40,907 bases of DNA, from assembly GCA_009837085.1 (NCBI GenBank), contig VXUF01000048.1:110662-151568 (forward strand), read 5' to 3'. Below are positions 17,024 to 32,205 of this stretch, one piece after another; the first letter of the stretch is position 1; every line of letters begins with the position of its first letter. This DNA is from Holophagales bacterium. Its GTDB lineage: Bacteria > Acidobacteriota > Thermoanaerobaculia > Multivoradales > Multivoraceae. The notes under the pieces are model-generated. The model was not told the DNA's origin. It was given only the letters and a program-made list of their open reading frames with translations, and searched no databases. The position numbers and the translations under genes were made by a program.

Positions 17024-18586
17024 TCAGTCCGCGACGCAGGCGTAGTTCGCGGCGTCGTTCACGTCGCCGGACCCGTTGTACCGCGCGTACTGCGGATAGG
17101 GGCACAGCGGGCGGGAGAAGCGCTTCCGGTCTTCCAGCGCCTCGCCCGCTTCGAGCATCGCCTCGCTCCAACTGACCGTCCTGTCGCCAAGGGCCACCTG
17201 GCCCTCCAGGAACGTGAAGTTCCCGGGGTGCTCCGCGAGGATCCGGTCGGGCGCTTCGCCGTTCTCCACCCAGTCGACGATCGCCTGGATGTAGTCGGCG
17301 GCCCAGGCGCCGTTTCCGCCCAGGCAGTGGATCATGCCCGGAACCATGAAGGTGCGCAGGTAGTCGCTCATCTCCCCGTTCAGTTCCCCGGCCTCGACCA
17401 GGAACCTCTCCAGCGCCCCGGCGCGGCAGGGGAAGTCGTGCCAGCCGTTGTAGATGATCAGCTTGCCGCCCCTCTCCTGGAACCTGCTGAAGTCGGGCGC
17501 CGGGAGGTCGACCGCGACCATGGCGTCTCTCAGCGCGGGCAGGTCCTTCACGGGGTCGAACGCGTCGATGTCGAAGCCTGGCGTGCGGTGCATTGCCGCC
17601 ACGATCAACTCGACCGTGACGTCGGACGCGGTCCCCTCGAGGAACGGCACGGGACCCGTCGCCCAGAGCTGGAAGTCGCCGTTCAGTTCCGCGCCCGGAT
17701 AGACGCCCGGCACGACGACGGCGCCCGAGTCGTCCGTGATCCCGGTGTAGAGGAAGCGCGCCGTCTCGATCTGGCCGGCCGTGAGGCAGTCGGCGGCGGG
17801 ACCGTCCTGGCATTCGAGAGCGTCGAGTTCGAGCAGCTCGACGGCGCACTTGCGGGGGTCGCCGACGATGCCGTCCGCAACGCCGTCCAGCATGTCGCAG
17901 GCTCTCCGGGTGTTCGCGTCCAGTAACGCCACGGATTCTGCGGAGAGGGGGTTCCGCTTCTGGTGACGGCTCGTCTCGAGCGCGAACGTCAGCAGGCCGA
18001 ACCCGTAGTCGACGGCCGGCGCCCCGGCGATGATGCCGTCGTAGTCGTCCGGATACCGCAACGCCTCCATCAGCGCGGCGCGCCCGCCGTTCGAGCAGCC
18101 CCAGAGGTACGCGTGTTCGACGGGCCGGCCGTAGAACTCCTGGATGATCCGCTTCGCCAGCACCGTCGTCAGGTGATTCGCGCGGAAGCCGAAGTCCAGT
18201 TGCGCGTGATCGTTCCGGTAGAAGGACGGGTCGTTGTCCGGCTCATGGCCGGTGTCGGTCGTCGCCATGGCGAAGCCGTCGTCGAGCAGGCTGCTCGTGT
18301 CTCCGATCACGCCGGCCAGGCCCCCGGGCGCGTGGAACATGAACCGTCCCGTCCAGCCTTCGGCCGGCATGCGGACCTCGAAGCGGATCGTCGCGTCGAT
18401 CGTGCCGCGGACCCGGCAATGCTCCGGGACCTCGCCCGCGGCGGGGACCAGTACGCCCGGTCCCACCGCGTGGTCCGAGTCGGTCAGGAGGTAGAGCGCG
18501 TCGCATCGGTCCGCGGGCGAATCCGCCGCGAGGACGATGCCCGGAAGGGTGAGGCAGACCGAGGTCAGCAGGGCGGGAAAGCGCAT
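17024..18586 (-). CDS. Tannase/feruloyl esterase family protein, exported
   Basis: A 520-residue secreted esterase that would release phenolic acids such as gallate or ferulate from esters. Signal peptide at 1-20, ending V-L-A-A. Family features: nucleophile W-G-C-S-N-G-G-R with Cys164 beside Ser165, the calcium-site-like L-D-G-V-A-D-G-I-V-G-D-P-R-K-C, the acid in I-I-Y-N-G-W-H-D, and the H-C pair in G-M-I-H-C-L-G-G. Together these are the C-S/D/H-C arrangement of tannases. AGGAGA precedes the ATG at a good distance. It heads a two-gene unit with the carboxylesterase. Confidence 0.93.
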   Translation of the reverse strand: MRFPALLTSVCLTLPGIVLAADSPADRCDALYLLTDSDHAVGPGVLVPAAGEVPEHCRVRGTIDATIRFEVRMPAEGWTGRFMFHAPGGLAGVIGDTSSLLDDGFAMATTDTGHEPDNDPSFYRNDHAQLDFGFRANHLTTVLAKRIIQEFYGRPVEHAYLWGCSNGGRAALMEALRYPDDYDGIIAGAPAVDYGFGLLTFALETSRHQKRNPLSAESVALLDANTRRACDMLDGVADGIVGDPRKCAVELLELDALECQDGPAADCLTAGQIETARFLYTGITDDSGAVVVPGVYPGAELNGDFQLWATGPVPFLEGTASDVTVELIVAAMHRTPGFDIDAFDPVKDLPALRDAMVAVDLPAPDFSRFQERGGKLIIYNGWHDFPCRAGALERFLVEAGELNGEMSDYLRTFMVPGMIHCLGGNGAWAADYIQAIVDWVENGEAPDRILAEHPGNFTFLEGQVALGDRTVSWSEAMLEAGEALEDRKRFSRPLCPYPQYARYNGSGDVNDAANYACVAD

Positions 18587-18679
18587 GGGAATCTCCTGGC
18601 AGGTCGCTGCCGTGGTCGACGCGACAGGGGAGCGTTTCAGGAATCCGGAGGCTCGGCGAGGAGTTCCTGGACCTAATCG

Positions 18680-19276
18680 TCAGCGGTCTGACGCGGGCTT
18701 GATCTCCCCCCGCTGCAACACCGGATAGAACTGCGTGAACACGTTGTCCGTCGCAGCATGCTCGGCATGGCAGTCGTAGCACCGTTCCTTCGGGAACGCT
18801 GAGGCCGACTCCCTCAACCCACCCGACCGGTCGCGGAAGCTGAGGTAGGCCCAGCCTTCGGGGTAGCGCTTGCTGTCCTTCACTGCGACCTCCATACCCA
18901 GGAAGTCCTTCTCGAAGTAGCCGGCCTGGTTGATGGACTCGCGGGAGCCCGGCCGGAAGACGTCCATGGGGAGCATGGTTCCCTCGGGGAACTCGCCGGT
19001 CTCGATGAAGTAGCGGTATGCCTCGGGCTGGATGTAGACGTTGGTGAAGGCGCCCGGGCCTTCGCGCTCGGCGGCGTCTTCGTCGTAGCTGAGGCCGAGC
19101 GAGGCTCCGACGAAGACCCAGGTGCGATAGCCGTCGGGGCGGAGGAGGTCGCCGTCGGCGGTGTAGGCGGGGAGGGCCATGCCTTCGACGGAGGGCTTGG
19201 CGTCCGACTGTTGGGCGACGGCAACGAAGGTCGCGATCAGGAGGATGAGGGCTGCTGCTATGGCGATGTTGCGCAC
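18680..19276 (-). CDS. Cytochrome P460-family c-type haem protein
   Basis: A 198-residue exported protein with an N-terminal signal helix (4-20) and one haem-binding C-Y-D-C-H (Cys166, Cys169, His170) near the C-terminus, followed by A-T-D-N-V-F-T-Q-F-Y-P. The body (Y-R-T-W-V-F-V-G-A-S-L-G, V-Y-I-Q-P-E-A-Y) matches the cytochrome P460/cytochrome c'-beta fold. Known members oxidise hydroxylamine or bind NO. Here it lies downstream of the molybdenum hydroxylase genes, so it may serve as their electron acceptor, which is inference. Confidence 0.85.
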   Translation of the reverse strand: MRNIAIAAALILLIATFVAVAQQSDAKPSVEGMALPAYTADGDLLRPDGYRTWVFVGASLGLSYDEDAAEREGPGAFTNVYIQPEAYRYFIETGEFPEGTMLPMDVFRPGSRESINQAGYFEKDFLGMEVAVKDSKRYPEGWAYLSFRDRSGGLRESASAFPKERCYDCHAEHAATDNVFTQFYPVLQRGEIKPASDR

Positions 19277-19396: not shown

Positions 19397-21619
19397 TTAG
19401 GTCCAGCTCAGGTCGTGCTTCGAGATCGGCAGCGAGCGGATCCGCTTGCCGGTGACGGCAAAGATCGCGTTGCACAGGGCCGGCGGCACTGGCGGCAGCG
19501 CGGGCTCACCCAGACCGGTGGGCTGGTTGTCGCTCATCACCCAGTGGACTTCCACCGGCGGCGCCTGGTCGATGCGGAGCAGCTTGAAGTTGTGGAAGTT
19601 GCTCTCGTTCGTGCGGCCGCCGTCGAAGGTGATCTCCTGGTCGAGCGCCTGGCCGAGGCCGTCGAGGGCCGCGCCCTGGACCTGGTTGACGGCGTTGCTC
19701 GGGTTGACGAGCTGTCTGCCGACGTCGCCGGCGACCCAGATCCTGTCGACGCCGAGTTCGCCTTCCTTGCTGACCGTGGCCTGGACGACTTCGGCGAAGT
19801 AGCCGCGGTGGCTGAAGTGGAACGCGACGCCCTGGGCGGTGCCCTCGGGCAGGTCCGCCTTGCCCCAACCCGACTTGTCGCGCACGAGTTCGAGCACGGC
19901 CTTCATCCGCTTTGGGTCGAAGGCTGTCCTGGTCCCGGCTGGCGCCGAGTCGAGCAGGTCGAGCCGGAACTGGAGCGGATCCTTTCCGGCTTCGGCCGCG
20001 AGCTCGTCGATGAACGACTGGACGACGAACGAGATCGCGTTGCTTGTCGGAGCGCGCAGCGCCCCGGTCGGGATGCCGAGCGGCATCTTCGACGCCTGGA
20101 GGGCGAAGTTCGGCACGAAGCCCTGGGGGAACTCGTTCGGCATCATCTCGGCGCTCGGGGCGAATCGCCGACCCTCGCCGAAGCTGACGAAGTGGTCGCG
20201 CCACGCTGTCAGGTTGCCGGCCTCGTCGAGACCGCCCTGCAGATAGTGGTAGCCGCCGGGGCGGAAGTAGTCGAAACGGGTGTCGTCCTCGCGGTTCCAC
20301 ACCAGCTTGACCGGAACTCCCGCCTGCCGCGCGATCAGCGCCGCCTCGAGCATGTAGTCCCAGTACAAGCGCCTCCCGAAGCCCCCTCCCATCCGGGTCA
20401 GGTGGATCGTGATCTGATCCTCGGGAATGCCCAGCGCCTTGGCCAGGTCTCCGCGCGCGAACTGTGGAGTCTGGATCGGCGCCCACATCTCGAGCCCGCC
20501 ATCGTGGAAGTGTGCGGTGGTGTTCTGCGGTTCGAGCGGCGCATGGGCGAGGAAGGGGTACTGGTAGGCGGCCTCGAGCGTCTTCGCCGCGGAGGCCAGG
20601 GCGCCCGCCGCGTCGCCGTCGTTCCTGAGATCCTGTTCCGGCGCCTGCTTCGACAGCTCCTCGGCCCGCCGGTCGAAGGCTGCGGTGCTCTGGGACGCGG
20701 TCGGCCCCTCGTCCCAGGTGACCTCCAGCTTGCTTCGGGCCTCGTTGATCAGCCACCAGGAGTCGCCGACGATGGCGATGCCGTTGGGCGGCGCGACCTG
20801 AAACATCGAGGGCCCGGCGCTTCCGGCCTGAGCGGCCGAGTCGACGACGAAGGCGTCGGTGACGCCGGGCGACGCCTTGACCGCGTCGAGGTTGGCGCTC
20901 TTCACCTTGCCGCCGTGGACCCGGCACTTCTCGAACACGGCGTACTTCATGCCGGGCACGGTGACGTCGATGCCGAAGAGGGGCTTGCCGGTGACGATCT
21001 CCGGGTTGTCGACGCCGGGGATCTCCTGGCCGATGATCCTGAAGTCCTTCGCGTCCTTGAGCGGGACGGTCCGGGGACTCGGCGGCTCGATGTCGGCCGC
21101 GGCGCTCGCTAGTTCGCCGTAGGACAGCGACTTGTTCTTGAAGTGGACGGCGCCGGCCTCGGTGGTGCACTTCTCGGGCTTGGTCTTCCACTCCTTCGCC
21201 GCGGCTTCGACGAGCATGGCGCGGGCGGCCGCGCCCACGCGGCGCATCGACTCGTAGTGCATCGGCGTGGCCATGCTGCCGCCGGCCATCTGGCCCCGGT
21301 ACTTCGTCGCGTCGAAGTCCGCCTGCTCGACGCGCACCTGGCTCCAGGGGATGTCGAGCTCTTCAGCGATGAGCATCGGCAGCATCGTCTTGACGCCCTG
21401 ACCGATCTCGGGGTTCTGGGCCATGATCGTCGCGATGCCGTTCGGCGTCAGGCGGATGAACGCGTTGAGCGCCGTCTCGGCGTCGGCGGTAGCGGCGAAG
21501 GCGCCGCGCGCGCCGTCCAGCGGGAAGCGGGCTCCGAGGAGCATGCCGCCGCCGGCCAGGGCGGTGACGTGAAGGAAGCCGCGCCGGGAGAGGTTGCCTG
21601 TCTTGTCCACGGCGTTCAT
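19397..21619 (-). CDS. iorB: Molybdopterin-binding aldehyde/xanthine-type hydroxylase, IorB-like large subunit
   Basis: Catalytic molybdenum subunit of a two-subunit hydroxylase resembling isoquinoline 1-oxidoreductase; the true substrate is open. The 740-residue protein has a twin-arginine signal ([16 protein letters not shown]), so the folded complex is exported to the periplasm. Characteristic stretches include [35 protein letters not shown] and the C-terminal [11 protein letters not shown]. The fused two-domain layout without FAD or FeS parts is IorB-like. ATG 21619 overlaps the end of the small-subunit gene by four bases. Confidence 0.9.
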
Positions 21620-22128
21620 GCCTCACTCCCTCCCGCGCCCGTGGCCGTTTCGTGACTGGTGGCCGATGGAGCCTGTGCGATGTCCGCGGCGCGATGGATG
21701 GCCGTCCGGATGCGGCTGTAGGTCGCGCAGCGGCAGATGTTCCCGCTCATCGCTTCGTCGATGTCGTCGTCAGTGGGCGCCGGGTTGCTCGCGAGGAGCG
21801 CCGAGGCCGACATGATCTGGCCGGCCTGGCAGTAGCCACACTGGGGTACGTCGATTTCTTGCCAGGCGAGCTGCACGGGATGGGCGCCGTCCTCGGACAG
21901 GCCTTCGATCGTCGTGACCTCCTTGCCCTCGGCGCGCGAGACCGGCATGCGGCAACTGCGCTCCGGCTCGCCGTCGACGTGCACCGTGCAGGCCCCGCAG
22001 AAGGACCGGCCGCAGCCGAACTTGGTGCCCTTGAGGTCGAGTTCGTCGCGGAGAACCCACAGCAGGGGCATCTCCGGCGGCGCGTCGACCGTCGTCGACT
22101 TGCCGTTCAGCGTGAAGGCGATTGCCAT
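21616..22128 (-). CDS. iorA: (2Fe-2S) electron-transfer subunit, IorA-like
   Basis: A 170-residue iron-sulfur subunit partnering the IorB-like protein. The plant-ferredoxin-type cluster ligands are Cys39, Cys44, Cys47 and Cys59; the C-terminal helical cluster ligands are Cys97, Cys100, Cys132 and Cys134 (C-G-Y-C-Q-A-G-Q and I-C-R-C). All eight cysteines are present. GAGGAG lies nine bases before the ATG. It lacks its own export signal, as usual when the TAT signal sits on the large subunit. Confidence 0.93.
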
Positions 22129-22232
22129 GAGTTCATTCTCCTCGAGGGCCGTTGCGGGGCGGCGACTTACTGGCTGGTCATACAGTGAATGAAACGCGGA
22201 GAGAGGTCAAGGGCTCGCCCGCGATATGGCGC

Positions 22233-23777
22233 TCAGTTCTGAAATGCCTCCAGCTTTCGCCGGAGGGACCGGCAGAGGCTGGAACCGTCGCCGCCCGTCT
22301 CGTAGACGTAACGGTCGGGCCGAATCAACACGCTGGACGCGTTGTTCCGGCCAAGCCAGCGGGTGAGTTCGCCATTCGCGTCGGACAGGTCGCGGCCGAG
22401 CTGGAGGACGGTGCCGCCGAGAACCTCCGTGAACCAGTCCATGTCGTCGCCGGTGGTCGGGGAACTCACGATGAGAGAGAACTCCGGACCCAGCAGGTCG
22501 TCGAGCCAGGTTTCGCCGCCGGCGGTCGTCACGCGGGGCCTGATCATGCGTGCACCGGAGGCCTCCGAGCTCCCGATCAGCCCCCGTTGGTAGGGCTGCC
22601 GGTTCGTCATGCGCCGCATCAGGGAGAAGCCGGTCTTTCTCTTCCTGCGGCCGCGGAAGAAGGAGTAGTTGCGGTTCGCGATGGCGAGCGGAGTCGAGGC
22701 GCTGATCATCCGCCCCCGCTTCGATGCGCCCTCGATCAGGCGCGCGCAGTGATCCCAGCACTCTTCCTGGTAGGTGTCCAGAAGCGCCGGTCCGGCGAGC
22801 CCCCGAAACAGGAGTTCGAACTTGAAGGCCACGTTCAGGGCGTCGCGGATGCCCATGTTGAGACCCTGGCCGGAGAAGGGCGGCGACTGATGGGCGGCGT
22901 CTCCGGCCAGCAGCAGTCGACCGGCGCGCCACGCCTTCGGCATCGAGCCATGGAAGAGGAATGGCTGAACACGAAGGATCTCGCACGAAGACGGGTCGAA
23001 GTACTCGGAGATCGCCTCGAGGGAATCTTCGGCGGTGAAGTTCCGGGCGAGCGCTTCACCGGCCTCGAAGTCGAAACGGACGTGCTTGTGGTGCCCCTTG
23101 AAGTACACGACGGAACGGTTGCGCCGGCACCTGATCTCGGAGCCGTCCGGAAGGGAATCGAAGAGCTTCTGGTCGTGGACCACGAGGTCGACGACGATCC
23201 ACTGGCGCCGGTAGCCGAAGTCGACCCGTTCCGACCCGATCGCCGAGCGGCAGAAGCTGCCGCCGCCGTCAGCTCCGACGGCGTAGCGTCCGGTGAACTC
23301 ATGGCGCTCGCCGGTGTCGCGGTGCGTCGCGACCACTTTCGCGGCTTCGCCCGAACCGTCGACCGCGCACACGTTGTAGCCGAGGAACGCGTCGACTGCG
23401 ACGCCCTTCGGGAAGTCGTCGCGCAGCAGGCGCTCGAGCGCGGGCTGGTGGAACACCATGCCGCCCATCGGGAAGCCGAACCGCTTCCGGGCTTGCAGAA
23501 AGTCGAGCGTCATGAGGGGCCGGCGTTTCGCGTCGACGAACTCGTTCCGCGCGTAGGGCGACGCGTCGTCGGGGATCAGCCTCTGGAGGATTCCCATGGA
23601 CGTGTAGATGCGGCAACTCTCCGGGTCGAGGACCATCGCCCGGGGCGTGGGATAGACATCCGGCTCTCGGTCGAAGATCGCCACCGACCGGCCGCGCGCC
23701 CGTAGCAGGTTGGCGAGCGTGGCGCCCGTCGGCCCGCAGCCGATGATCAGTACGTCGTACTTCGTGTTCTCGCTCAC
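22233..23777 (-). CDS. MhpA-like FAD-dependent aromatic-ring monooxygenase
   Basis: Class A flavoprotein hydroxylase of 514 residues, closest by motif to 3-(3-hydroxyphenyl)propionate hydroxylase and related phenol hydroxylases. N-terminal dinucleotide fold G-C-G-P-T-G-A-T-L-A (13-22), the D-G motif V-G-A-D-G-G-G-S-F-C-R, and the second FAD motif A-G-D-A-A-H-Q-S-P-P-F-S-G-Q-G-L-N. It would use NAD(P)H and O2 to hydroxylate an aromatic ring. The substrate cannot be assigned, and no ring-cleavage dioxygenase follows. GTG start at 23777, diverging from the TIGR03084-like gene across 92 bases. Confidence 0.88.
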   Translation of the reverse strand: MSENTKYDVLIIGCGPTGATLANLLRARGRSVAIFDREPDVYPTPRAMVLDPESCRIYTSMGILQRLIPDDASPYARNEFVDAKRRPLMTLDFLQARKRFGFPMGGMVFHQPALERLLRDDFPKGVAVDAFLGYNVCAVDGSGEAAKVVATHRDTGERHEFTGRYAVGADGGGSFCRSAIGSERVDFGYRRQWIVVDLVVHDQKLFDSLPDGSEIRCRRNRSVVYFKGHHKHVRFDFEAGEALARNFTAEDSLEAISEYFDPSSCEILRVQPFLFHGSMPKAWRAGRLLLAGDAAHQSPPFSGQGLNMGIRDALNVAFKFELLFRGLAGPALLDTYQEECWDHCARLIEGASKRGRMISASTPLAIANRNYSFFRGRRKRKTGFSLMRRMTNRQPYQRGLIGSSEASGARMIRPRVTTAGGETWLDDLLGPEFSLIVSSPTTGDDMDWFTEVLGGTVLQLGRDLSDANGELTRWLGRNNASSVLIRPDRYVYETGGDGSSLCRSLRRKLEAFQN

Positions 23778-27003: not shown

Positions 27004-28140
27004 CTACTGAGGAGCCGAGAGCCGCACTTCCGCTTCGGTCTCCTCTTCGCCGCGGAGCAGGCTTACGGTGACCGAGTCGCCCGGCTGTTGCCCTTCCAAC
27101 ACCGCGCGGATATCGGGGACCGACCGAACCGGTTCGCCCTCGATCGCGGTGATCACGTCGCCGAGAACGACGCTGCCGCGGCGCGTCTGGCGAACGCCAC
27201 GGAGACCGGCGCGGTCGGCGCCTGAGTTGCGCGTAACCTCCAGAACGACGACGCCGTCCACTCGGGGCCGGACGCGTGAGCCCTCGACGAGGGTGACTCC
27301 GAGCTGTGGACGGTTGACTCGACCGTGGGCGATCAGTTCCGGGACGACCCAGTTCACGGTGTCGACCGGAATCGCGAAGCCGATACCGGCCCAGGCGCCG
27401 CCAGACGACACGATCTGCGTGTTGACGCCGATCAGCCGTCCGCTCGAGTCGAGGAGAGGACCGCCGGAGTTGCCCGGGTTGATCGCGGCGTCGGTCTGGA
27501 TGACGCCCTGGAGTTCGCGTCCACCGATCGACTGAACTTCCCGGTCGAGGGCGCTGATGACCCCGGTGGTCAGCGTGTAGTCGAGTCCGAAGGGATTGCC
27601 GATCGCCAGCACGGACTGGCCGACCTGGAGGTCGTTCGACGACCCGACGGGGATCGGCCGCAGCTTCTCCGGGGGAGCCTCGATCCGGAGCACGGCGAGG
27701 TCCATGTCCTGGTCGCTGCCCACCGGGGAGGCCGGCCAGGTGGTCTGGTCGTACAGTGTGACTTCGGCGGCCTGAGCGTTCCGAATCACGTGGAAGTTCG
27801 TGACGATGTGGCCCCTGTCGTCCCACAGGAAGCCGCTGCCAGTGCCGTCCTGAACGCGGTCGAAGCGACGCCCGAAGAAGCTGACCCGCTGCTCCCGCAG
27901 TGTCGTGATGTAGACGACCGACGGCTGCGTCTCGCGGAACAGGTTGACCGTTGCCCGTTCTTCGGGGAGCAGGCCCGAACTCGGCGTCACCGGCCGTGGT
28001 TCGCCCTGACTCTCCGCCTGAAGCACGTTGCCCTGCCAGCGCGAGCCCACGAGGAAGGCAAGCCCGGCAAGCACGAGCAGTCCCGCCGTGGCGGCGATCC
28101 GCGGCCGTTCGGTGGCGCCGTTTGAGGTGGGATCGAGCAT
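27004..28140 (-). CDS. HtrA/Deg-family serine protease with one PDZ domain, membrane anchored
   Basis: Envelope quality-control protease of 378 residues. One N-terminal membrane helix (about 16-32) is followed by a trypsin-like domain with the complete triad: T-N-F-H-V (His117), D-M-D-L-A-V (Asp147) and N-P-G-N-S-G-G-P-L (Ser225). A single PDZ domain (about 270-375) ends the protein. This is the DegS/HhoA-like layout, not the two-PDZ DegP one. ATG at 28140, diverging from the selenoprotein gene. A repeat copy follows its 3' end. Confidence 0.93.
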   Translation of the reverse strand: MLDPTSNGATERPRIAATAGLLVLAGLAFLVGSRWQGNVLQAESQGEPRPVTPSSGLLPEERATVNLFRETQPSVVYITTLREQRVSFFGRRFDRVQDGTGSGFLWDDRGHIVTNFHVIRNAQAAEVTLYDQTTWPASPVGSDQDMDLAVLRIEAPPEKLRPIPVGSSNDLQVGQSVLAIGNPFGLDYTLTTGVISALDREVQSIGGRELQGVIQTDAAINPGNSGGPLLDSSGRLIGVNTQIVSSGGAWAGIGFAIPVDTVNWVVPELIAHGRVNRPQLGVTLVEGSRVRPRVDGVVVLEVTRNSGADRAGLRGVRQTRRGSVVLGDVITAIEGEPVRSVPDIRAVLEGQQPGDSVTVSLLRGEEETEAEVRLSAPQ

Positions 28141-28186
28141 GGGCTGAAGCTAACAGGCAGTAGGGCGGGTTTGTTCCAAAGCGGAG

Positions 28187-28260
28187 CCGGTCTGACGACC
28201 GGCAGGTTTCCCCGGCCGCCTGCGGCGGCAGCCGGCGGGGACGCCGGCGCACCCGGTGTG
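28187..28260 (-). repeat. Modular palindromic repeat, copy F, in a divergent promoter gap
   Basis: Head on the minus strand at 28231-28260 with one change (ACCCGGTGTG). A second hairpin GGCCGCC-TGC-GGCGGC lies at 28214-28228, and a third, GCCGGTC / GACCGGC, around 28187-28203. The head reaches the expected -35 zone of the selenoprotein promoter. Confidence 0.8.
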
Positions 28261-28271
28261 GGTCGCTGAAA

Positions 28272-28279
28272 GCTAGACT
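28272..28279 (+). promoter_or_regulatory. -10 element of the selenoprotein gene, leaderless start
   Basis: GCTAGACT, with TAGACT at 28274-28279, ends six bases before ATG 28286. Transcription would begin at about the A of the start codon, and there is no ribosome-binding site. Confidence 0.5.
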
Positions 28280-28285
28280 GGCCGC

Positions 28286-29389
28286 ATGATTCTCACAGAC
28301 AGGACAGTGTCCAGGACGGAGTTCGAGGCCGGTACCGGTTGGGCCCTCAAACCGGAGGGCGCCTGCAAAGGCTCGGCGTGTGTGCCTCTCTTCGACCGTG
28401 CCCCGGCGTCGTCGGGCCCGATCGACGGGCTTGCCATTGCCGAGGCGATCGGTCTGCCGCTCGTGCACGACGAGGAGCACGGTGTGTGGGCACTGGGCCC
28501 CGAGTCGATCGGTTCCCGAGCGCTCGTGTCGGCCGGGGAAGCCGACTTCGAGCTGCCGGATCTCGACGGGAAGCCGTTCCGGCTCTCGAGCCTGCGCGGG
28601 CGCAAAGTCGTCGTCTACGCCTGGGCGCCCTACTGAGGGTGCTCGGCCCACCTGCCCGGGTGGCAGGCGTTGCGCGACGAGCTTCATCCGCAGGGCTTCG
28701 AACTGGTCACGGTCGGTCTCGACACCTTGGGAGCCGAGGGCTGCCGCGCCTTCATCGAGGCGGCGCAGCCGAAGCATCCCTCGCTGGTCGACCGTCACCA
28801 CCTGCTGGCCAGGGTCTTCGGCGTGATCAACATCCCCAGCTCGGTCTGGATCGACGAGTCGGGCACGATCGTCCGGCCGGCCGAGAACGCGCCGGCGCCG
28901 CCGACGGGCGCCCCGCCGAAGCTGGGGTCTCGTTCCCCGATTCCCGGTCGCTTCGGCGAGATGCTGCAGGAAGCGGCGAAGATCCCGGCCGACACCGATG
29001 CCTACCACCTTGCGCTGCGCGACTGGGTGGAGAAAGGCGCGGCGAGTCGATTCGCGCTGTCGCCGGAAGAAGTCGTTGAACGATCGCGTCCGCGCGACGC
29101 GGACGTGTCCCTCGGACACGCCCACTTCGAACTCGCTTCGCACCTGGAGCTCGAGGGTCACCACGAGGCAGCCGTCCGTCACTTCCGCGAAGCGCACCGT
29201 CTGGTCCCCGACAGTTGGTCCTTCCGACGCCAGGCCTGGTCGCTCGAGGGCGGCGCCGAGGGTCCATTCGCGCGCTTCTGGCAGGGCCCGAGTGAAGACG
29301 ACCCCGAGGCATGGCCCTACGAAGGGGATTGGCTCAGCGACATTCGCGAGGAGGGGCCGGAGAACTACGCCGAGCGCTTCGAACCGTAA
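28286..29389 (+). CDS. Selenocysteine-containing redoxin, ResA-like with a W-A-x-x-U-G-C motif
   Basis: Read with TGA 28634-28636 as selenocysteine, the frame runs 367 codons without another stop. Residues 85-117 are a thioredoxin/AhpC-TSA-type start: F-E-L-P-D-L-D-G-K-P-F-R-L-S-S-L-R-G-R-K, a hydrophobic strand, then Y-A-W-A-P-Y-U-G-C. Sec117 takes the place of the reactive cysteine and Cys119 is the partner. Past the TGA the fold continues: L-P-G-W-Q-A-L-R-D-E-L, then V-I-N-I-P-S-S-V-W-I-D-E-S-G with the cis-Pro. The C-terminus contains a TPR-like helical pair (about 275-320). The N-terminal 80 residues hold A-C-K-G-S-A-C. From memory, a family named for a WAxxUGC motif is known in sequence databases. 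Probably a thiol oxidoreductase or peroxide-reducing enzyme. No signal peptide is seen. Confidence 0.88.
28651..28667 (+). promoter_or_regulatory. Candidate bacterial SECIS hairpin
   Basis: CCTGCC-CGGGT-GGCAGG forms a perfect 6-bp stem with a five-base loop having G in its second position. The loop starts 21 bases after the last base of the TGA. Both the spacing and the early loop G fit the usual bacterial SECIS rules for SelB recruitment. An alternative fold, CCACC-TGCCCG-GGTGG, also has G second in the loop. Confidence 0.65.
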
Positions 29390-29413
29390 CTGGGTGCGCC
29401 GCCCTTCCGGCGC
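29389..29413 (+). repeat. Partial repeat head (copy I) with hairpin before the pgi -10
   Basis: ACTGGGTGCGCCG (29389-29401) is a fragment of the repeat head. It continues into its own hairpin, GCGCCG-CCCTTC-CGGCGC (29396-29413), that abuts the pgi -10 element. Confidence 0.5.
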
Positions 29414-29419
29414 TACCAT
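29412..29419 (+). promoter_or_regulatory. -10 element of the pgi gene
   Basis: GCTACCAT, with TACCAT at 29414-29419, lies eight bases before GTG 29428 and eleven before ATG 29431. The transcript would be leaderless or nearly so. It fits the local GCTAnnnT pattern. Confidence 0.4.
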
Positions 29420-29430
29420 CCGCCACCGTG

Positions 29431-30993
29431 ATGCAAGTCGAGGCGGAGTCCGGTCTCACCGCAGCGTTGGAGCGCCGCCGCCGGCAATGGCGCGACTTTG
29501 ACGGCACTGCCCGTCTCTGGGCCCGTGACGCCTCGCTCTGGACCGACTCGGGCGAGGAGGAGTGGCTCGGCTGGCTGGATGTCGAACACCTGGGCGATCT
29601 GACGTTCGCCAACACCGACGGCAAGCGCGTCGCAACGGGGGCGGCCGCGCTCGCCGAGCACCTCGCCGGACCGCCGTTCGAGCGCTGCCTGCTGCTTGGC
29701 ATGGGCGGCTCCGCTCTGGGTGCCGGTCTGCTGTGGTGGGCGCTGCCCCGGCAGGTCGACGCGGAGTTCATCGTCCTCGACACGACGGACCCTCGCGAGA
29801 TCACCCGCGCCCTTGAGGGAGTTGATCCGTCGGCGCTGCGGGTCATCGCCGCGTCGAAGTCGGGCGGCACGCTCGAGACCCGGCTGGCGTTCGAGTTGCT
29901 GCTCGACCGGTTGGGCGAAGCCGCGCCGCGGGCCGCCCTGGCGATAACCGACCAGGGTTCGGCACTGGAGGCACGAGCCCGAACTGCCGGAGTCCCGGTC
30001 GTCTTCGGCCAGCCTGACATCGGCGGCCGGTTCTCCGTGCTCTCAGCGTTCGGCCTGGCTCCGGCCGCGGTCGCCGGAATCGATGTCGAACCGCTGCTTC
30101 TGAGCGCGCGGCGAATGGCCGCCGTGTGCCGCCGGCCGGACGATGGTGAAGAGACGAACCCGGGCCTCGAACTGGGCCTGCTGCTCGCCGCGGCCCACGA
30201 CTGCGGCCGCGACAAGCTCTACCTTCATGCGCCGGACGGCTGTGCGGAGATGGTGGCCTGGGTCGAACAGCTCATCGCCGAGTCGCTCGGCAAGGGAGAC
30301 GTGCTGCTGCTGCCGGTAGCGGCGGCGGGCCTGCCCGCGGAGTCCGCGCCTGACCGACTCGACATCGAACTCGTTCCAGCCGACCTCGGCGGCGAGTTCT
30401 TCCGCTGGCAGTTCGCCACGGCAGTGGCCGGCGCACTGCTGGGCGTCAACCCCTTCGACCAGCCGGACGTCGAGTCGTCCAAGGTCGTCACCCGGCGCTA
30501 CGTCGAGCGGATGACAGCCGGCGATACTCCGGCGCCTGCCGGCGTTGTACGGCTGAGCGAGGTCAGCGAGCTTGGGCTGGCCCAGCTCCTGGGCACCCAC
30601 TTGGCGACGTTCCCGGATCGCGGCTACGCCGTCATTTCGGCCTACCTGGACCGCAGTCACCGCAACCGCGAGCTGCTCGACGCGCTGCGCCGCGGCGTCG
30701 CGGGGCGCACCAGCGGCGCGTCCGTTCTCGGTTTCGGGCCAGGTTTCCTTCACTCGACCGGCCAGGCCCACAAGGGCGGCCCTAACCGCGGCCTGTTCCT
30801 GCAGATCACCGCCGATCCACCGGCCGCCGACGTTCCGATACCGGGCGAGGGCCTGACCTGCGGCCAGGTTCAGCTCGCCCAGGCGTGGGGCGACTACGAG
30901 GTGCTGGTCGAACGGAACCGCCGGGTGCTGGCAGTCCACATCGACGGCGCTGTCGAAGCGGGCCTGCGCCGCTTGATCGAGGCTCTCAGCTAG
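29431..30993 (+). CDS. pgi: Glucose-6-phosphate isomerase
   Basis: Interconverts glucose 6-phosphate and fructose 6-phosphate in the cytoplasm. About 520 residues with two SIS-type sugar-phosphate domains: L-L-G-M-G-G-S-A-L-G, A-A-S-K-S-G-G-T-L-E-T, G-G-R-F-S-V-L-S and F-L-H-S-T-G-Q-A-H-K-G-G-P-N. The C-terminal motif and length resemble the isomerase half of bifunctional transaldolase/phosphoglucose isomerase proteins, but here it stands alone. The start is ATG 29431 or GTG 29428; the frame further upstream overlaps the selenoprotein gene and should be ignored. It ends in a cluster of hairpins facing the XRE gene. Confidence 0.88.
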   Translation: MQVEAESGLTAALERRRRQWRDFDGTARLWARDASLWTDSGEEEWLGWLDVEHLGDLTFANTDGKRVATGAAALAEHLAGPPFERCLLLGMGGSALGAGLLWWALPRQVDAEFIVLDTTDPREITRALEGVDPSALRVIAASKSGGTLETRLAFELLLDRLGEAAPRAALAITDQGSALEARARTAGVPVVFGQPDIGGRFSVLSAFGLAPAAVAGIDVEPLLLSARRMAAVCRRPDDGEETNPGLELGLLLAAAHDCGRDKLYLHAPDGCAEMVAWVEQLIAESLGKGDVLLLPVAAAGLPAESAPDRLDIELVPADLGGEFFRWQFATAVAGALLGVNPFDQPDVESSKVVTRRYVERMTAGDTPAPAGVVRLSEVSELGLAQLLGTHLATFPDRGYAVISAYLDRSHRNRELLDALRRGVAGRTSGASVLGFGPGFLHSTGQAHKGGPNRGLFLQITADPPAADVPIPGEGLTCGQVQLAQAWGDYEVLVERNRRVLAVHIDGAVEAGLRRLIEALS

Positions 30994-31473: not shown

Positions 31474-32205
31474 TCAGATCGAGGTCCGGAGATTCTCGTT
31501 GGCGGCGATTTGCGCGCCGCGTGCCTTGTAGCGTTCCCGGCGCTCCTTGCTGAAGCTGTCGACCTCGTCCTTCGGCACGCCGTAGGCGACTCCGCGATCC
31601 ACGCCCGGGCGCGCACGAACGCGCTTCAGCCAGTCCACCACAGTCGGTTGGGTCGTGATGTCGACCTTGGCCCACTTGTACGCACGGATCCAGGGGAACA
31701 CGGAGATGTCGGCAACCGTGAAGTCGTCGCCGCAGATGTAGGGATGCTTCTCGAACCGGCGGCCGAGAATCGCCACCAGCCGAAGCGACTCCCTGCCGAA
31801 TCGTTCCAGCGGATGCGCCTTGGCGTCCTCGGGCACATCGATGTAGCGCGTGTAGCTGAGCTTGTTGCCGAAGGCCGGGCCCAGATTGGCGGCCTGCCAG
31901 TAGAGCCAGGGAAGCACGTCCCAGCGTCGCTCGTCCGTCGGGTAGAGCGGGGTCGGGTACTTCTCCCCGAGGTACTGCAGGATCGCGCAGCTCTCCATGA
32001 CGGCGCGACCGTCGTCTACCAGGGCCGGCATCTTCTGGTTCGGATTGATGGCGGTGAACTCGGGCGTGAACTGATCGCCGGCCGAGAGATCGACCATGTG
32101 GACGCGCGTCTCGGGCAGTTCGACTCCGGCCTCGCGCAACTCCTCGAGCATGATCGAGATCTTCCACCCGTTGGGCGTCGCGCTGAAGTAGACGTCAAGA
32201 GCCAT
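31474..32205 (-). CDS. Glutathione S-transferase, Nu-class/YfcG-like
   Basis: A 243-residue thioredoxin-fold plus helical-domain protein. The start, Y-F-S-A-T-P-N-G-W-K-I-S-I-M-L-E-E-L, carries the T-P-N-G motif of YfcG/YghU disulfide-bond oxidoreductases, which use glutathione disulfide rather than a catalytic Ser or Cys. It continues with I-N-P-N-Q-K-M-P-A-L and E-S-C-A-I-L-Q-Y-L-G-E-K-Y, the usual cis-Pro and glutathione-binding segments. The gene overlaps the 3' end of the crotonase gene by 11 bases, so the two are co-transcribed. Confidence 0.92.
   Translation of the reverse strand: MALDVYFSATPNGWKISIMLEELREAGVELPETRVHMVDLSAGDQFTPEFTAINPNQKMPALVDDGRAVMESCAILQYLGEKYPTPLYPTDERRWDVLPWLYWQAANLGPAFGNKLSYTRYIDVPEDAKAHPLERFGRESLRLVAILGRRFEKHPYICGDDFTVADISVFPWIRAYKWAKVDITTQPTVVDWLKRVRARPGVDRGVAYGVPKDEVDSFSKERRERYKARGAQIAANENLRTSI

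Follow-up and report, generated by a model that had tools for sequence, protein, structure and literature searches.

A conserved in-frame TGA, very probably read as selenocysteine, in a ResA-like WAxxUGC gene of an Acidobacteriota genome

The TGA at codon 117 of the gene at 28286-29389 (+) is very probably read as selenocysteine (Sec), so that the gene makes a selenoprotein of the ResA-like WAxxUGC family (NF041054); we put the probability of this reading at roughly 0.93. The gene lies in a 40,907-nucleotide stretch of Acidobacteriota DNA (hereafter, the window) and is a single frame of 367 residues, in which the TGA (28634-28636) is the sole in-frame stop before the terminal stop codon at 29387-29389. 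Because an in-frame stop occurs 12 bases upstream of the ATG (28274), 28286 is the first start in the frame. The first-pass annotation had described two open reading frames in the same frame, joined by one TGA; its frame, coordinates and codon number were all reproduced. It had also proposed that protein similarity runs unbroken across the TGA (WAPY-U-GCSAHLPGWQ). This was borne out when the whole protein, with the TGA translated as Sec, was compared with NF041054: the match scored 489.8 bits (curated cut-off, 300 bits) and joined residues 1-366 to positions 1-353 of the 354-position profile.

Among homologues covering the site, the codon was TGA in 63 distinct sequences and TGC (Cys) in two, with no other codon found; the expected presence of Cys or Sec at residue 117 was thus seen throughout. 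The TGA-containing homologues span several phyla, with identities to the window protein as low as 29%. In a scan of one genome per species, 52 loci were found, and their record names include Acidobacteriota, Pseudomonadota, Actinomycetota and Chloroflexota. Rates of substitution were compared with seven close relatives, giving dN/dS values of 0.15-0.21 for the part upstream of the TGA and 0.10-0.15 for the part downstream. Both sides are under purifying selection, and the latter value indicates that the part beyond the TGA is translated and useful.

The genome that contains the window (4.32 Mb, 164 contigs, 96.6% complete) was searched for the Sec machinery that the first-pass annotation had named as a check, and all four components exceeded their cut-offs: tRNA-Sec (73.5 bits; anticodon tca according to ARAGORN), SelA (440.8 bits), SelB (361.6 bits, with its two stretches) and SelD (245.4 bits). 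The NF041054 family was present in 23 of 396 sampled genomes of the phylum. SelA was present in all 23 of these, compared to 252 of the 396 overall, a comparison that does not amount to a probability, as the genomes are related. In nine genomes picked through the loci, SelA accompanied the Sec (TGA) form in 8/8 cases and was absent from the genome (G396) with a Cys form (L091). Neither SelA nor tRNA-Sec was found in G396, a metagenome bin that may be incomplete. The genome of the second Cys form (L032, genome G183) has both SelA and tRNA-Sec; a Cys form can therefore coexist with the machinery, and its appearance is not always coupled to machinery loss. The two Cys forms are separate changes on the tree. 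Two genomes of the window's genus (G184 and G334) have SelA and no family match, and the gene is accordingly not universal in the genus. The SelD match (L016; G000:C24:669-1592) lies inside a 565-aa open frame, compared to the 311 positions of the model. This SelD is possibly part of a fusion; an Ndh-SelD fusion is known (PMC2398784).

A nonsense mutation or miscall in a former Cys gene would look alike in one genome, where a single stop interrupts an otherwise intact frame, but this reading is already refuted by conservation, as 63 distinct homologues, drawn from separate assemblies and belonging to several phyla, share this TGA, the sequence after it is under strong purifying selection, and the Sec machinery is intact. 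In particular, a misread TGC or TGT is excluded, since dozens of assemblies made independently show the identical TGA. It is just as improbable that suppression, or a genome-wide reassignment, inserts Trp or another amino acid at the TGA. Such read-through would give the same frame, but TGA is an ordinary stop here (it ends 11 of the 14 window frames with a Pfam match), only TGA or a Cys codon occurs at the site, and a tRNA-Sec with the anticodon tca is present. A further alternative, hardly more probable, is that of two separate proteins, i.e. a truncated N-terminal product of 116 residues and a second product from the downstream frame that begins at 28670 (TTG). Both frames are indeed listed mechanically. 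However, a stop here would fall within the active site and divide the redoxin domain, neither the TGA/TGC codon nor the U/C-G-C motif varies, and the Cys homologues are single frames. Selenocysteine, rather than a nonsense mutation as the first-pass annotation had put it, is supported by the conserved TGA, the purifying selection and the Sec machinery; the decoding itself of the UGA as Sec is inferred. The analysis confirms that a codon which looks like a stop in an Acidobacteriota genome is a sense codon.

A candidate SECIS was located at 28651-28667 (+), i.e. at a distance of 15-31 bases from the final base of the TGA, on its downstream side. It is a hairpin with a 6-bp stem and a 5-base loop (CCUGCC-CGGGU-GGCAGG). 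In the proposed mechanism, SelB with Sec-tRNA(Sec) would read the UGA at codon 117, guided by this hairpin. Across 44 homologues (43 distinct), 97.3% of the cells pair, and sliding the stem partner drops the pairing to 24-70%. Cells changed on both sides numbered 7, where shuffles averaged 1.8, and covariation scored 0.175, compared to 0.135 in shuffles; neither observed value was reached in 500 shuffles, which do not keep the relatedness of the homologues. Because the L-P-x-W-Q peptide dictates part of the stem, free codon choice was also examined in divergent Sec forms, with each codon compared to sites of the same amino acid. Asp122, Leu123 and Pro124 had the lowest synonymous variation (rank 1 of 6, 1 of 11 and 1 of 11, respectively), while just outside the stem Leu129 was the most variable of 11 and Gly118 ranked towards the variable end (8 of 10). 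At position 123, each of the 62 Sec rows with Leu has a codon ending in G, compared to a gene-wide mean of 58%. In both Cys forms, the stem and the L-P-x-W-Q peptide are both broken, and on the basis of these two forms the hairpin probably also helps to hold the peptide motif in place. Fold energy did not single out the hairpin, either against dinucleotide shuffles (z = 0.23) or against synonymous recodings (mean z = -0.5, an ordinary value), and no Rfam family exceeded its cut-off over 28100-29500. The case for a SECIS thus rests on the paired changes and the codon constraint, which make this assignment a credible one.

The window gene is very probably a real selenoprotein gene, but UGC-type selenoproteins have been known since 2008, and the family is already curated. 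A “Prx-like (UGC-containing)” selenoprotein was reported in that year from Global Ocean Sampling data (PMC2398784), a UGC-containing Prx-like protein is listed in a 2022 review (PMC9312934), and a “UGC-containing TlpA disulfide reductase family protein” appears in a 2026 review (PMC13188914). These proteins have a pfam00578/cd02966 domain and a UGC motif, as does the window protein, which is likened to them by domain and motif only. The expectation that automatic annotation would yield fragments or a pseudogene must be tempered: the family has not been overlooked, as the curated NCBIfam model (“WAxxUGC_long”, titled “ResA-like WAxxUGC motif-containing protein”) names the motif. The window protein contains it as WAPYUGC, with TGA as the Sec codon, and shares with the family the Sec at the named position and the N- and C-terminal parts. 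It differs in that the window's genus has His in place of Asp in the S-x-D-L-P stretch, and otherwise in nothing that matters. In the literature searched, the NF041054 accession and the motif name were in no paper, and no experiment on the family was found. The present analysis adds the hairpin, with the evidence for it, a check of the genome for the Sec machinery, and the arrangement of the domains; RNA-level evidence for a SECIS is now given for this family.

For structural analysis, a model was built with Cys in place of Sec (mean pLDDT 92.4; pTM 0.91). Three parts can be distinguished in it, namely a small domain at the N-terminus, a domain of the thioredoxin type and a helical tail. The N-terminal domain carries the pair C27-x4-C32 (28364-28381, +) that the first-pass annotation had noticed, with both Cys present in 45 of the 45 homologues covering them; this region alone (residues 1-81) had no Pfam match. 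The Redoxin/AhpC-TSA domain comprises residues 87-197 (28544-28876, +). The C-terminal tail (28946-29386, +) had been called TPR-like. One such stretch (residues 279-309) was found, and it is helical in the model, but it fell below the Pfam cut-off and its TPR character is therefore tentative. The extra N-terminal domain and the tail make the protein larger than a plain TlpA, as had been noted.

The best matches among solved structures were ResA and its relatives. Foldseek gave 2f9s as the best PDB match (E 3.5e-10), and VIA-align gave 3gl3 (Z 13.9, rmsd 2.2 Å over 139 residues) and 1st9 (Z 13.0); the VIA rows lie mainly over residues 76-255, so the fold matches concern the central region. The predicted model and these matches together assign a ResA-type thioredoxin fold. 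In a 46-row alignment, residue 117 (Sec or Cys), Gly118, Cys119 (28640-28642, +) and Pro184 are invariant. The TGA would occupy the position of the reactive Cys, with a resolving Cys two residues on, as had been proposed from the sequence. Pro184 presumably stands where ResA, TlpA and DsbE proteins have their cis-proline, and it is a likeness to those proteins along with the fold of the central domain. The differences lie in the active pair, which is U-x-C (UGC) rather than the usual UxxC, in the extra C-x4-C domain, in the helical tail, and in the lack of a signal peptide as judged by eye. The C-x-x-C active site of ResA and TlpA is replaced by U-G-C here and by C-G-C in the Cys forms, and the score against the ResA model was 49.7, under its cut-off of 170.

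In thioredoxin-fold enzymes, the first residue of the motif attacks and the second resolves. The product is most likely a thiol/selenol oxidoreductase in which Sec117 would be the nucleophile and Cys119 the resolving residue, with the central domain cycling between a selenol/thiol and an Se-S bond; it would most likely reduce a disulfide or a peroxide. The start of the protein looks soluble, and inspection by eye showed no signal peptide, in keeping with a product that is probably cytosolic. As to the main activity, we lean towards that of a disulfide oxidoreductase. A selenoprotein that is mainly a peroxidase of the peroxiredoxin kind is the less favored reading, though one of appreciable probability: AhpC-TSA is a further Pfam match of the redoxin domain, and the UGC type was called “Prx-like” in a review (PMC9312934). 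Weighing against it, the nearest structures and sequences are of the ResA, TlpA and DsbE types, and the TxxC/U signature of peroxiredoxins is replaced by WAPYUGC, which has no Thr at -3.

A role may also be proposed for the flanking parts. Electrons may travel between the Cys27/Cys32 pair and the Se-S bond, in one direction or the other, and the helical tail may serve to bind a partner. Closing a ring across Cys-x-Cys imposes more strain than across Cys-x-x-Cys, and such a strained ring would suit a fast-turning oxidoreductase. It is a speculative and rather unlikely extension that the C-x4-C domain serves as a built-in electron relay for the strained Sec-Gly-Cys center, so that the active site is recycled within the protein; if true, the protein would be a self-contained two-center selenoenzyme. 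Which way the reaction runs, what the substrate is and whether Cys27/Cys32 act as a relay are matters of inference.

The gene is flanked by a trypsin/PDZ protease (27004-28140, -) and a phosphoglucose-isomerase-like frame (29311-30993, +), with a glutathione S-transferase (GST)-like gene farther downstream (31474-32205, -). Clustering of the flanking frames revealed no operon partner common across phyla, and the selenoprotein gene therefore appears to stand alone; the neighborhood gives no hint of the substrate. The GST-like neighbor recurs, mostly in one genus and one group of close relatives. Outside the genus, seven loci have related frames close to the selenoprotein gene; several of these loci are close relatives of one another. 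A plasmid search gave no match.

By record name, the nearest genomes are Acidobacteriota bins labelled Holophagales, Thermoanaerobaculia and Candidatus Multivorans. On the tree, the window's genus groups with Gammaproteobacteria, apart from most of the other copies in Acidobacteriota, and the support is moderate (92/82, 84/88); the topology hints at a transfer of the gene between phyla. A genome of the same family (G152) has two copies (L031 and L042), one of the type shared with Proteobacteria and one of the type of the other Acidobacteriota. Three Sec forms (L062, L073 and L076) come from metagenome bins titled Klebsiella pneumoniae, Reyranella massiliensis 521 and Bordetella parapertussis; they cluster on the tree with Betaproteobacteria/Burkholderiales and Reyranella bins, and some, if not all, of these titles appear to be mistaken. 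Elsewhere in the window, molybdenum-cofactor-binding, [2Fe-2S] and FAD-binding proteins are encoded in a row at 19397-23777 (-), resembling an oxidoreductase cluster, and a tannase/feruloyl-esterase-like gene adjoins a cytochrome P460-like gene at 17024-19276 (-).
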